From IMG/VR virus record IMGVR_UViG_3300034175_000029, positions 1 through 29,044 of that record: a stretch of 29,044 bases of DNA. One strand, written 5' to 3'. The notes beneath the pieces were generated by a model, which saw only the letters and a list, made by a program, of their open reading frames with translations, made no database searches and was not told where the DNA came from. The stretch is from a virus. Made by a program: the position numbers and the translations under genes. How positions within the stretch are numbered: position 1 is the first letter of the stretch; each line of letters opens with the position of its first letter. Shown in pieces: positions 4,867-29,044 of the stretch.

Positions 4867-5349
4867 ATGAACAAGGTTTGCCGCACCTGCGAAATTGAAC
4901 AGAGAGCGATGGACTACTACCGCCAGCCCAGCGGTACTTTCATGCTGGATTGCAAGGCTTGCTGGCGGGCGAAGGTGCGGGCAAACCGATTGGCGAACAT
5001 CGAACACTACAGGGAGTTCGACAGGCAGCGGGCGAATCTGCCGCACAGGGTGGACGCCCGCGAAGCCTACAGCCAGACAGAGCGCGGCCGACAAGCATCA
5101 AGTGCGGCGAAGCGCAGATTTGTTGAGCGCAATCCGCTTAAGAAAGCGGCATCCACTGCGGTCAATAACGCAGTTCGCGATGGCCGCTTGAGCAAGCAGC
5201 CTTGCGAGGTGTGCGGCAAAGCGCAGGCTCAGGCGCATCACGACGACTACAGCAAGCCGCTAGACGTTCGGTGGCTATGCACCACACACCATGCGGAATG
5301 GCACAAGCACAACACGCCACTTTGCCCAAAACAGGAACGAGCAGCATGA
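4867..5349 (+). CDS. HNH/zinc-finger endonuclease-like protein
   Basis: A 160-aa protein with two zinc-binding parts. The N-terminal ribbon has Cys5-x2-Cys8 and Cys29-x2-Cys32. The C-terminal HNH-like unit has Cys113-x2-Cys116, His124-His125, Cys138, His141-His142 and His146, within the string AHHDDYSKPLDVRWLC that is common in phage HNH proteins. A basic middle region (residues 75-95) could contact DNA. It may be a homing-type nuclease or a DNA-processing accessory enzyme of the recombination module; its free-standing form and position favour the first. GAGG (4858-4861) precedes ATG 4867 and the stop overlaps the next start (ATGA). Confidence 0.8.
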   Translation: MNKVCRTCEIEQRAMDYYRQPSGTFMLDCKACWRAKVRANRLANIEHYREFDRQRANLPHRVDAREAYSQTERGRQASSAAKRRFVERNPLKKAASTAVNNAVRDGRLSKQPCEVCGKAQAQAHHDDYSKPLDVRWLCTTHHAEWHKHNTPLCPKQERAA

Positions 5350-7146: not shown

Positions 7147-7300
7147 GCCACTCCAATTCGTATGGTGGGGCTGGGCTGATACGGCGGGCCGCTGGTTTCA
7201 CTTCCACCGCTACGAAGGAAACATTGCCCGCGTGTATCGCTGGTCATGCTCAATTGGCCCGCTGGAGATTCGCAGATGGCTGCGCAGGAGAAAGTCATGA
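7139..7300 (+). CDS. Small tryptophan-rich basic protein, 53 aa
   Basis: A strong GGGGGAAGG (7128-7136) precedes ATG 7139, and the stop overlaps the next ATG (7297-7300). The 53 residues contain six tryptophans (LQFVWWGWADTAGRWF, then RVYRWSCS, then RRWLRRRKS) and a basic end. The mix of aromatic and arginine residues suggests binding to membrane or nucleic acid. I do not recognise the family. Such tiny, packed early genes are prime candidates for host-takeover or anti-defence peptides; that is inference from position only. Confidence 0.6.
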   Translation: MAKPLQFVWWGWADTAGRWFHFHRYEGNIARVYRWSCSIGPLEIRRWLRRRKS

Positions 7301-8597: not shown

Positions 8598-8841
8598 AGC
8601 CGGACAAGCAAGAACGCTACTCCTGATTTACGCCCACCACACCTGAGAGTGAGCAATGGCGGGGTTCGGTGGTGCCGGCACCCGGCAAAGACGTCATTCC
8701 TATGGGTGCCGCTGGGTGACACTGGATGGCCTTCAAACGTAGGCCCCGCAACGGTTTCAGGCTGGCTGTTGATTGCCGGATAAACATGGATGGCGCCGGG
8801 TTCCGTTATGCTGTCCCGCCCGAATTACGCCAAACGTAAGC
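8598..8841. other. Non-coding gap before the integrase: possible attP/arm-site region
   Basis: This 244-base gap is the only large one in the early operon. I see no ORF with a ribosome binding site. It contains a perfect 12-bp palindrome GGTGCCGGCACC (8671-8682), a second GGTGCCG at 8705-8711, GGGTG repeated at 8704 and 8714 (10-bp period), and GCGGGG (8659-8664) facing CCCCGC (8744-8749). Such clustered repeats could be Xis or Int arm-type sites of attP. A weak -10-like TATGCT (8807-8812) precedes int. The attachment core cannot be identified without the host sequence. Confidence 0.35.
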
Positions 8842-9801
8842 ATGGCATCTATCCGGAAACGCGGGACCAAATGGCGGGCCGAGGTCATGGTCCGGGGCGT
8901 CCGGGAGAGTGACACCTTTCGCACCCGACAGGAAGCCGCCGCCTGGGCCATCCAGCGCGAGGCCGAACTATCCGGTGCTAGGCTGCCGGACAAGTCGCTG
9001 GCGGACGCTATGGGCCGCTACGGGCGCGAGATCAGCCCGACACACAAGGGCTGCCGGTGGGAGCTGCTCCGGCTGGGCAGATTCGCCAGCTCCCCCATCT
9101 CTCAGAAGCCGGTTGCCGGCATCACCGGTCCGGACATAGCCGGCTGGCGCGATGCCCGCCTGCAGGAAGTGTCAGCGGCTACTGTGGCACGCGAGATGAC
9201 CCTGCTGCGGTCGGTGCTGGAGGCGTGCCGGGTGGATTGGGGGTGGATCAGGGCAAACCCAATGGCGGACGTTCGCCGGCCCCGGACGCCAACCAGCCGC
9301 AAGCGGCGGATCACGCAGGATGAGATCGATCAGGTGACGCTGGCCTGCGGACTGGACGAACTGCGAGCCGACACGGCCCTGAACCGCACTGGGCTGGCGT
9401 TCCTGTTCGCGCTGGAGACCGCCATGCGAGCCGGGGAGATACTTGGGATGATGTGGCTAGACGTGGCCGAGAAGTCGGTGCGGCTACCACGCACCAAGAA
9501 TGGCGACGTGCGCCACGTGCCGCTGTCCCCCAGGGCGCGGGAGATTCTGGCCCTGCTGCCCCGCCGGGATGGGCCGGTGTTCGACCTTCACGCCGGCACG
9601 CGAGACGCGCTATGGCGTCGGGCCGTGGCCACGACGAAGATCCCCGACCTACATTTCCACGACAGCCGCGCGGAGGCGATTTGGCGGCTGTCCAAGAAGC
9701 TGGACGTGATGGAGCTGGCGCGGGTAATCGGGCACCGGAACATCACAAGCTTGCTGCTTTACTACAACGTGTCAGCTGATGAACTGGCGGACCGTCTCTG
9801 A
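8842..9801 (+). CDS. int: Tyrosine-family site-specific integrase
   Basis: A 319-aa tyrosine recombinase. I start at ATG 8842 (MASIRKRGTKWRAEV), the usual N-terminus of this integrase group; an upstream TTG in frame lacks a ribosome binding site. An arm-binding N-terminal part (1-45) and a core-binding SAM-like part (about 55-140) precede the catalytic domain, where I see Arg196 (ETAMRAGEIL), Lys219 (PRTKNGD), His273-x2-Arg276 (HDSR), His298 (GHRN) and the nucleophile Tyr307 (LLLYYN). All catalytic residues are present, so it should be active. It integrates and, with the excisionase-like protein, excises the phage genome. Its stop lies 10 bases from the stop of the convergent tail gene, with no terminator between. 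Confidence 0.96.
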   Translation: MASIRKRGTKWRAEVMVRGVRESDTFRTRQEAAAWAIQREAELSGARLPDKSLADAMGRYGREISPTHKGCRWELLRLGRFASSPISQKPVAGITGPDIAGWRDARLQEVSAATVAREMTLLRSVLEACRVDWGWIRANPMADVRRPRTPTSRKRRITQDEIDQVTLACGLDELRADTALNRTGLAFLFALETAMRAGEILGMMWLDVAEKSVRLPRTKNGDVRHVPLSPRAREILALLPRRDGPVFDLHAGTRDALWRRAVATTKIPDLHFHDSRAEAIWRLSKKLDVMELARVIGHRNITSLLLYYNVSADELADRL

Positions 9802-28611: not shown

Positions 28612-28638
28612 GGGTGCCTCTGTGGGTTGGCAATGGGT

Positions 28639-28696
28639 GCCCGTCCCCCGCGGCCAGCTGCGCGCGAGAGTTGGTCTGGGATCAGGGGAGACGGGC
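28639..28696 (-). other. Long hairpin in the leader before the endolysin gene
   Basis: GCCCGTC (28639-28645) pairs with GACGGGC (28690-28696), extended by CCCC (28646-28649) against GGGG (28685-28688) past one unpaired A. The stem lies between the leader terminator and the endolysin ribosome binding site (28616-28620). It may protect or shape the 5' end of late mRNA. Its function is not known. Confidence 0.45.
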
Positions 28697-28703
28697 AGAA
28701 ACG

Positions 28704-28728
28704 AAAAACCCCGCCGGTTAGGGCGGGG
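28704..28728 (-). terminator. Leader terminator ahead of the lysis genes (tR'-like)
   Basis: On the - strand CCCCGCC (28728-28722) and GGCGGGG (28715-28709) form a 7-bp GC stem with a 6-base loop, followed by five T (28708-28704). It lies about 90 bases before the endolysin start. In lambdoid phages a terminator at this place blocks late transcription until the Q-type antiterminator acts. That role is inferred from position. Confidence 0.85.
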
Positions 28729-28771
28729 TCGGGTTCCAGCTAACGCCCTACGTCGGCATCGCTGGAGCAAA

Positions 28772-28932
28772 TGCAGCGGTTACGGATAAGCAGGGTTCGC
28801 ATCCTGCTCGCTGCACTCTTGCATGGACGGGCCGGGGGGCTTATCTCCGGCTCAGGGGTTCGGGTGTGCGTCCCGCTTATCCCCTCCGAGGCACATTCGG
28901 CTACGCTTAAAGCCTGCGCATTCCGTCCATGC
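28772..28932 (-). ncRNA. Highly structured leader RNA upstream of the late operon
   Basis: No convincing ORF lies here, but nested inverted repeats do. A perfect 10-bp pair GCATGGACGG (28821-28830) / CCGTCCATGC (28923-28932) closes a 112-base multibranch unit. Inside are AGGGG/CCCCT with a further CGGG/CCCG stem, GCCGG/CCGGC, and one of two alternative 4-bp stems. A second unit pairs TGCAGCG (28772-28778) with CGCTGCA (28809-28815) around GCAGG/CCTGC (28790-28794, 28803-28807). It lies between the terminators at 28948-28982 and 28704-28728. It may be a late leader or a 6S-like pR' RNA. The strand is inferred from late transcription. Confidence 0.45.
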
Positions 28933-28947
28933 CTTGATCTTACCACG

Positions 28948-28982
28948 AAAAAGGCCGCGAACTTTGTGGGTTGCGGCCTTTT
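28948..28982. terminator. Bidirectional terminator at the right end
   Basis: AAAAGGCCGC (28949-28958) and GCGGCCTTTT (28973-28982) form a 10-bp stem with a 14-base loop; runs of A and T at the two ends give a T tract on either strand. It can stop RNA coming from the right on the - strand, such as a regulator transcript, and any + strand RNA. It isolates the leader region from what lies beyond the window. Confidence 0.85.
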
Positions 28983-29044
28983 GCCGAAGGCAATTCTTGA
29001 CAGTGCGCCTATTGGGCCACACGGTTACGTCACGTGTCAACTGG
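28983..29044. promoter_or_regulatory. Inverted TTGACA pair, possible regulatory region
   Basis: TTGACA at 28997-29002 faces TGTCAA at 29035-29040, and ACACG (29019-29023) faces CGTGT between them. Either TTGACA could be a -35 box, but neither has a recognisable -10 box at normal spacing. The pair may be an operator or part of a late promoter with a non-standard -10. The window ends here, so the reading stays open. Confidence 0.25.

Follow-up and report, generated by a model that had tools for sequence, protein, structure and literature searches.

Lambdoid phages carry Q and pR′-tR′ in the slot that follows genes of the NinB-RusA type, and lambda qut is a DNA element. Conversion of RNA polymerase to a termination-resistant form by RNA alone is best known from HK022-type phages: HK022 put suppresses termination and needs the zinc-binding domain of the RNA polymerase β′ subunit. 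The put RNA has two stem-loops in ~70 nt, and putR lies ~270 nt into the PR transcript (PMC9378689). Antitermination by put requires no dedicated phage protein and extends over at least 10 kb (PMC9378689). Here, we describe a conserved 87-nt RNA at 28820–28734 on the − strand of a 29,044-nt stretch of viral DNA (IMG/VR record IMGVR_UViG_3300034175_000029, positions 1–29,044; “the window”). We are close to certain that this RNA is real and functional; what it does is predicted.

A preliminary description of the locus saw two folded units between 28932 and 28772. The structure is real, but the edges were misplaced. The evolutionarily conserved unit consists of two abutting hairpins (50 and 34 nt) that start after a 10-bp stem, pass 28772, where the second hairpin unit had been thought to stop, and end 4 nt before a terminator. 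The proposed unit thus halved the conserved element and joined one half to a non-conserved 5′ domain. A blastn search of 28625–29044 against phages returned an 85-nt match at 81% in Xanthomonas phage FoX4; this phage also has a diverged copy 230 nt upstream of the matched one. Pattern scans of IMG/VR found three more copies (L088, L089, and L111), a genome scan found one in Lysobacter sp. CFH 32150 (L136), and a covariance-model search of 395 Xanthomonadaceae species found another two chromosomal copies (L148 and L149). All nine copies, i.e., the window, the FoX4 tandem pair (FoX4a and FoX4b), three further viral contigs, and the chromosomes of three Xanthomonadaceae, are exactly 87 nt long and align without gaps (alignments A2/A5), with pairwise identities of 59–93%.

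Searches of viral contigs with exact 19-mer, loop-based, and relaxed patterns yielded only L088, L089, and L111, and 71 new loci from one of these scans were assigned to chance by model R3. A single match of 18 in the scan of genome contigs was true (that in Lysobacter). Samples of Xanthomonadaceae, Xanthomonadales, and Gammaproteobacteria contained no chromosomal copies beyond the three, with weaker matches (L150–L152; 28–34 bits) excluded as unconvincing, and the plasmids searched contained none. Among relatives of the window’s amidase, blastn over all 80 loci gave no match to the RNA core, and model R2 detected no 87-nt RNA in the few loci searched with it.

Hairpin I (28818–28769) is built from stems P1 (28818–28809 with 28778–28769) and P2 (28808–28803 with 28794–28789), the invariant loop AUGCGARC (28802–28795), and a variable 10-nt bulge on the 3′ side (28788–28779). 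Hairpin II (28768–28735) is built from P3 (28766–28761 with 28740–28735), P4 (28759–28755 with 28747–28743), and the loop GACGYAG (28754–28748). For the first six copies, RNAalifold gave P1 (columns 3–12/43–52), P2 (13–18/27–32), P3, and P4 (62–66/74–78), with double changes in 11 of 26 pairs; an initial structure for hairpin II (model R1) was replaced when RNAalifold gave a better P4. Across the nine copies, both loops are near invariant, and UGCG in the first (28801–28798 in the window) can pair with CGYA in the second (CGUA, 28752–28749) in every copy. Because the only change at this candidate contact is a single G-C/G-U exchange, a kissing interaction between the loops is plausible at most.

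A covariation search among related leaders, suggested in the preliminary description, clearly favors the fold. The structure scored for the nine copies comprised P1, P2, P4, the pair 60:81, and the proposed loop-loop contact. Within it, 97.4% of cells are paired, and compensatory double changes occur at 10 of the 26 proposed pairs. The covariation score is 0.394, compared with 0.174 for shuffled partners (none of 500 shuffles reaches the observed score) and a maximum of 0.135 when partners are slid, and the RNAalifold consensus energy lies 8.9 standard deviations below that of column-shuffled alignments preserving conservation classes (z = −8.9). P3 cannot be written as a single column set because its register shifts: reading the nine sequences shows C60-G81 to be invariant and pairing to be kept, with a bulge of 0 nt (window, L136, L148, and L149), 1 nt (L088), or 2 nt (FoX4a, FoX4b, L089, and L111). 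A change of register with pairing retained is itself evidence for structure. The strand is also indicated: one U-G pair is invariant and there are several G-U/G-C changes, which fit an RNA on the − strand. Indeed, owing to the G-U pairs, the consensus folds far worse on the opposite strand (−20.0 kcal/mol, versus −32.6 kcal/mol on the − strand). That the region holds no protein-coding gene, as first proposed, is borne out by the absence of any frame open in all nine copies and by compensatory changes that track the stems; coding was rejected on these grounds, and the “AGCEPC” peptides that seem to be encoded are a side effect of RNA conservation. We also rejected a tRNA or tmRNA on the opposite strand, for which GCAGGGTTCGCATCCTGC resembles a T-arm hairpin: ARAGORN and the Rfam tRNA models were negative, and the strand preference is wrong.

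The leader as a whole is strongly folded, as had been stated: the − strand has a predicted folding energy of −71.9 kcal/mol (z = −4.4) over 28932–28772 and of −112.4 kcal/mol (z = −6.3 relative to dinucleotide shuffles) over 28932–28704, and the opposite strand of the region folds more weakly (z = −2.9). The 10-bp stem is exact (28932–28923 with 28830–28821, arms 92 bases apart), and none of 300 dinucleotide shuffles contained a perfect complement of at least 10 nt at that spacing. It closes a multibranch 5′ domain (28932–28821; z = −3.6) that lies outside the conserved core. In FoX4, comparable closed multibranch domains directly precede each copy (z = −7.4 and −2.8); their layout is similar before both, and their sequences are unrelated to that of the window. 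Directly before the first FoX4 copy, an unannotated stretch (L082, 2565–2764; z = −10.8) contains a long hairpin and a closed multibranch domain. Folding of the stretches before L088, L089, L148, and L149 revealed no unusual structure.

Terminator-like hairpins flank the leader on both sides, in agreement with the preliminary description. The downstream one is an intrinsic terminator directly after the RNA (28730–28707; 9-bp stem and U tract). As a separate observation, the 30 nt at 28700–28729 are identical at all 30 bases to part of a hypothetical gene of Mycobacterium phage Serendipity, and many related mycobacteriophages agree at 29 of the 30. The upstream hairpin (28982–28949; AAAAGGCCGC...GCGGCCUUUUU) was read by eye and folds as a hairpin, having been missed by the pattern scan because of its long loop; it is a candidate insulator of the leader. 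Between it and the 5′ domain lies a candidate extended −10 element, TGGTAAGAT (28945–28937), which has no −35 and would start transcription near 28930. A promoter scan of the window found nothing at the leader, and promoter scans of the window and related loci were uninformative.

Downstream of the RNA, the − strand of the window encodes an amidase endolysin (28611–28180; phrog_822, E = 3e-55), two proteins of unknown function, a spanin, the small and large terminase subunits, a P22-like portal, a scaffold, and the major head protein. The locus is thus, as proposed, the head of a late operon. Together with an integrase (8773–9801, +) and recombination genes on the + strand (Sak4-like and exonuclease-like), this late-gene set makes the window a probable piece of the genome of a temperate P22-like podovirus. 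A second strong terminator-like hairpin (21725–21705, −), with seven T in AACCGCCGCCGCAAGGCGGTTTTTTT, falls within the portal coding sequence, at its 3′ end (encoding ...NQPPPQGGFFMP...), upstream of the scaffold and capsid genes. Expression of the capsid genes from the leader would require read-through of this site, which is inside the operon.

The original proposal of a structured late-leader RNA is well supported. A late-leader placement recurs in two other phages: at L088 and G002/L162, the 87-nt RNA directly precedes lysozyme, terminase, and portal genes, and in G002 it is preceded by replication, NinB, Ref, and RusA genes. The two FoX4 copies are flanked by the first rightward gene after cro on one side and an exonuclease gene on the other, in an almost unbroken rightward operon that extends from 4 to 44 kb (~40 kb), with a terminator at 7261–7287. 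RefSeq places the start of the exonuclease (KNU97_gp08) upstream of copy b; a start at the ATG at L082 position 3107, just after the RNA, is more likely (L082 2882–3107 corresponds to 5037–5262 of the FoX4 record). The annotated genes gp06 and gp07, which overlap the structured stretch and copy a, are probably spurious. Of the phage contexts, only G003/L163 is at odds with an operon leader. There, a small ORF precedes the RNA, which is followed by structured sequence with a terminator-like hairpin and then by a helicase gene in convergent orientation. The small ORF looks like a ribbon-helix-helix protein by eye and has no match in Pfam or PHROGs. The 300-nt stretch downstream of the RNA (L163, 6075–6374, −) is itself unusually structured (z = −4.2) and ends in a terminator-like hairpin formed by GGCCCCGG/CCGGGGCC.

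Overall, four of the five phages have the RNA at the head of a long operon, which in three of them is the late operon, and eight of the nine copies are co-oriented with the downstream gene. An all-versus-all comparison of proteins from the five phages, which covered only part of G002 and G003, found no family common to all; other protein links are pairwise and generic (lysozyme, terminase, and methylase). Q proteins of families PF03589 and PF06530 are absent from the window, G001, G002, G003, and FoX4, in records that may be incomplete. The chromosomal copies (L136 2343–2429, L148 1501–1587, and L149 1501–1587) are each single in their genome and intergenic. They are 89–93% identical to one another and have different surroundings, which suggests mobility or phage descent. 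In genomes G005 and G084, one and the same conserved gene block is found within ~10 kb of the copy.

The lack of a shared protein partner, co-orientation, placement at operon heads, the FoX4 tandem, and the presence of downstream terminators in the window (28730–28707 and 21725–21705) and FoX4 (7261–7287) together form the pattern of an antitermination RNA like put. From this analysis, we tentatively favor, with rather less than even confidence, the reading that the 87-nt RNA is a put-like cis-acting antitermination RNA that is separate from put by sequence. In this model, the RNA would act in cis within the nascent transcript, folding as it leaves RNA polymerase and binding the elongation complex unaided by any dedicated phage protein; the RNA-bound complex would then resist terminators further downstream. 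In the window, the terminators overcome would be those at 28730–28707 and within the portal gene, and we propose that read-through of both would allow the late genes to be expressed in full. The 5′ domain may be an accessory, e.g., aiding folding or protecting the 5′ end. Since no protein is common to the five phages and no PF03589 or PF06530 Q was found, host machinery would have to suffice. A broader version, in which an undescribed family of RNA-only cis antitermination elements, independent of put, replaces N/Q in unrelated Xanthomonadaceae phages and has been adopted by a few hosts, is more doubtful. Several observations count against antitermination. G003/L163 has no obvious operon to read into; scans of L088 and L162 found no strong terminator right after the RNA and no recognizable promoter before it; and three copies sit beside ordinary Xanthomonadaceae chromosomal genes.

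The main rival explanation, which we consider somewhat unlikely, is that the RNA is a small noncoding RNA, terminated or processed from a longer transcript, that acts in trans by base pairing, by sequestering a host protein, or by binding an RNA target through its two invariant exposed loops. The near invariance of these loops favors such a model, and the window RNA stops 4 nt short of a strong terminator. At L163, there is a terminator-like hairpin within ~250 nt and no co-directional gene, and the chromosomal copies occupy unrelated intergenic places. However, no terminator-like site directly follows the RNA in five of nine copies (both FoX4 copies, L088, L089, and L148, the last judged by eye), and co-orientation with the downstream gene in eight of nine copies also counts against this reading. 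A distance of ~20–120 nt from the RNA to the next start codon in most copies would suit a different cis-acting 5′-leader element, one that controls translation of the next gene or mRNA stability (lysozyme/amidase, exonuclease, or secreted proteins) or responds to a ligand. This is unlikely, as the downstream genes have nothing in common (endolysin, exonuclease, hydrolase, and lipoprotein), we found no alternative pairing with ribosome-binding sites, and in FoX4 one gene follows both tandem copies.

Two further explanations fare less well. The occurrence of one copy per genome in unrelated phages and with unrelated chromosomal flanks has a mobile- or site-like character that could reflect a DNA-level element, i.e., a single-stranded DNA hairpin serving as a recombination, priming, or packaging site. 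The asymmetry between strands, with an invariant U-G pair, G-U/G-C changes, and a complement that folds much worse, argues against this, as does co-orientation with transcription of neighboring genes, and we regard a DNA-level role as improbable. Both this role and other leader functions are less likely than the put-like and small-RNA readings. Lastly, the preliminary description raised the possibility of an attenuator in which GGAUAAGC (28882–28875) pairs with GCUUAUCC (28791–28784) to give two mutually exclusive structures ahead of the terminator. The 8-nt complement is present, but the switch finds no support: the predicted pairing probability is ~1e-11, forcing the pairing costs 17 kcal/mol, and a best complement at least 8 nt long turns up in 17 of 300 shuffles. 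The GCUUAUCC arm lies partly in the 10-nt bulge that varies freely among copies, so the pairing is not conserved. Moreover, the minimum-energy fold contains both the conserved RNA structure and the downstream terminator, which makes a classical attenuator unlikely, and we consider the switch as proposed to be scarcely credible.

Whichever reading is correct, a compact, strongly covarying RNA passes between phages that have no common protein, sits where lambda needs Q, and, in the cultured phage FoX4, occurs as tandem copies at the start of a 40-kb operon. If the antitermination reading is true, RNA-only antitermination arose more than once, and the element would be a portable laboratory part. 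If it is false, what remains is a hitherto undescribed conserved RNA of phages, whose fold can be tested and whose loops may kiss.

Searches of Rfam 15 with the window element and four relatives’ loci found no family at threshold, with the best sub-threshold matches at chance level, in keeping with the earlier failure to match the element to a named family. Literature searches found no mention of the RNA, and the text of the FoX4 genome paper is silent on it. The RNA shares with C4 antisense RNA, GOLLD, and ROOL (Rfam 15) the general character of a structured noncoding phage RNA. The resemblance to the lambda late leader (Q/pR′/tR′ and 6S RNA) is one of arrangement, with a leader and terminator followed by lysis, terminase, and portal genes, and with the RNA following the NinB-RusA region in G002. 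By contrast with lambda, no PF03589 or PF06530 Q was detected here, and 6S RNA does not have this conserved fold. The put-like reading, raised in the preliminary description, holds for architecture and position and not for ancestry: there is no sequence or covariance relation to HK022 putL/putR, with the best hit of model R2 in the HK022 put region, filters off, at noise level (6.1 bits, E = 0.84). Judged by sequence, the 87-nt RNA is not put by descent. It is longer than put (87 versus ~70 nt), has different loops, belongs to phages of a different host group (Xanthomonadaceae), and, in three of the five phages, is found at the late rather than the early operon. Nevertheless, both are phage elements of two adjacent irregular hairpins near the heads of long operons, with no dedicated phage protein evident in the sequences compared here, and FoX4, like HK022 with putL and putR, carries two copies. 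The FoX4 copies, which lie behind the first rightward gene, also match the place of putR early in the PR transcript; the remaining copies are at late operons or intergenic. We therefore regard the 87-nt RNA as a new family of a known kind, the structured phage regulatory RNAs, with a hypothesized function like that of put.
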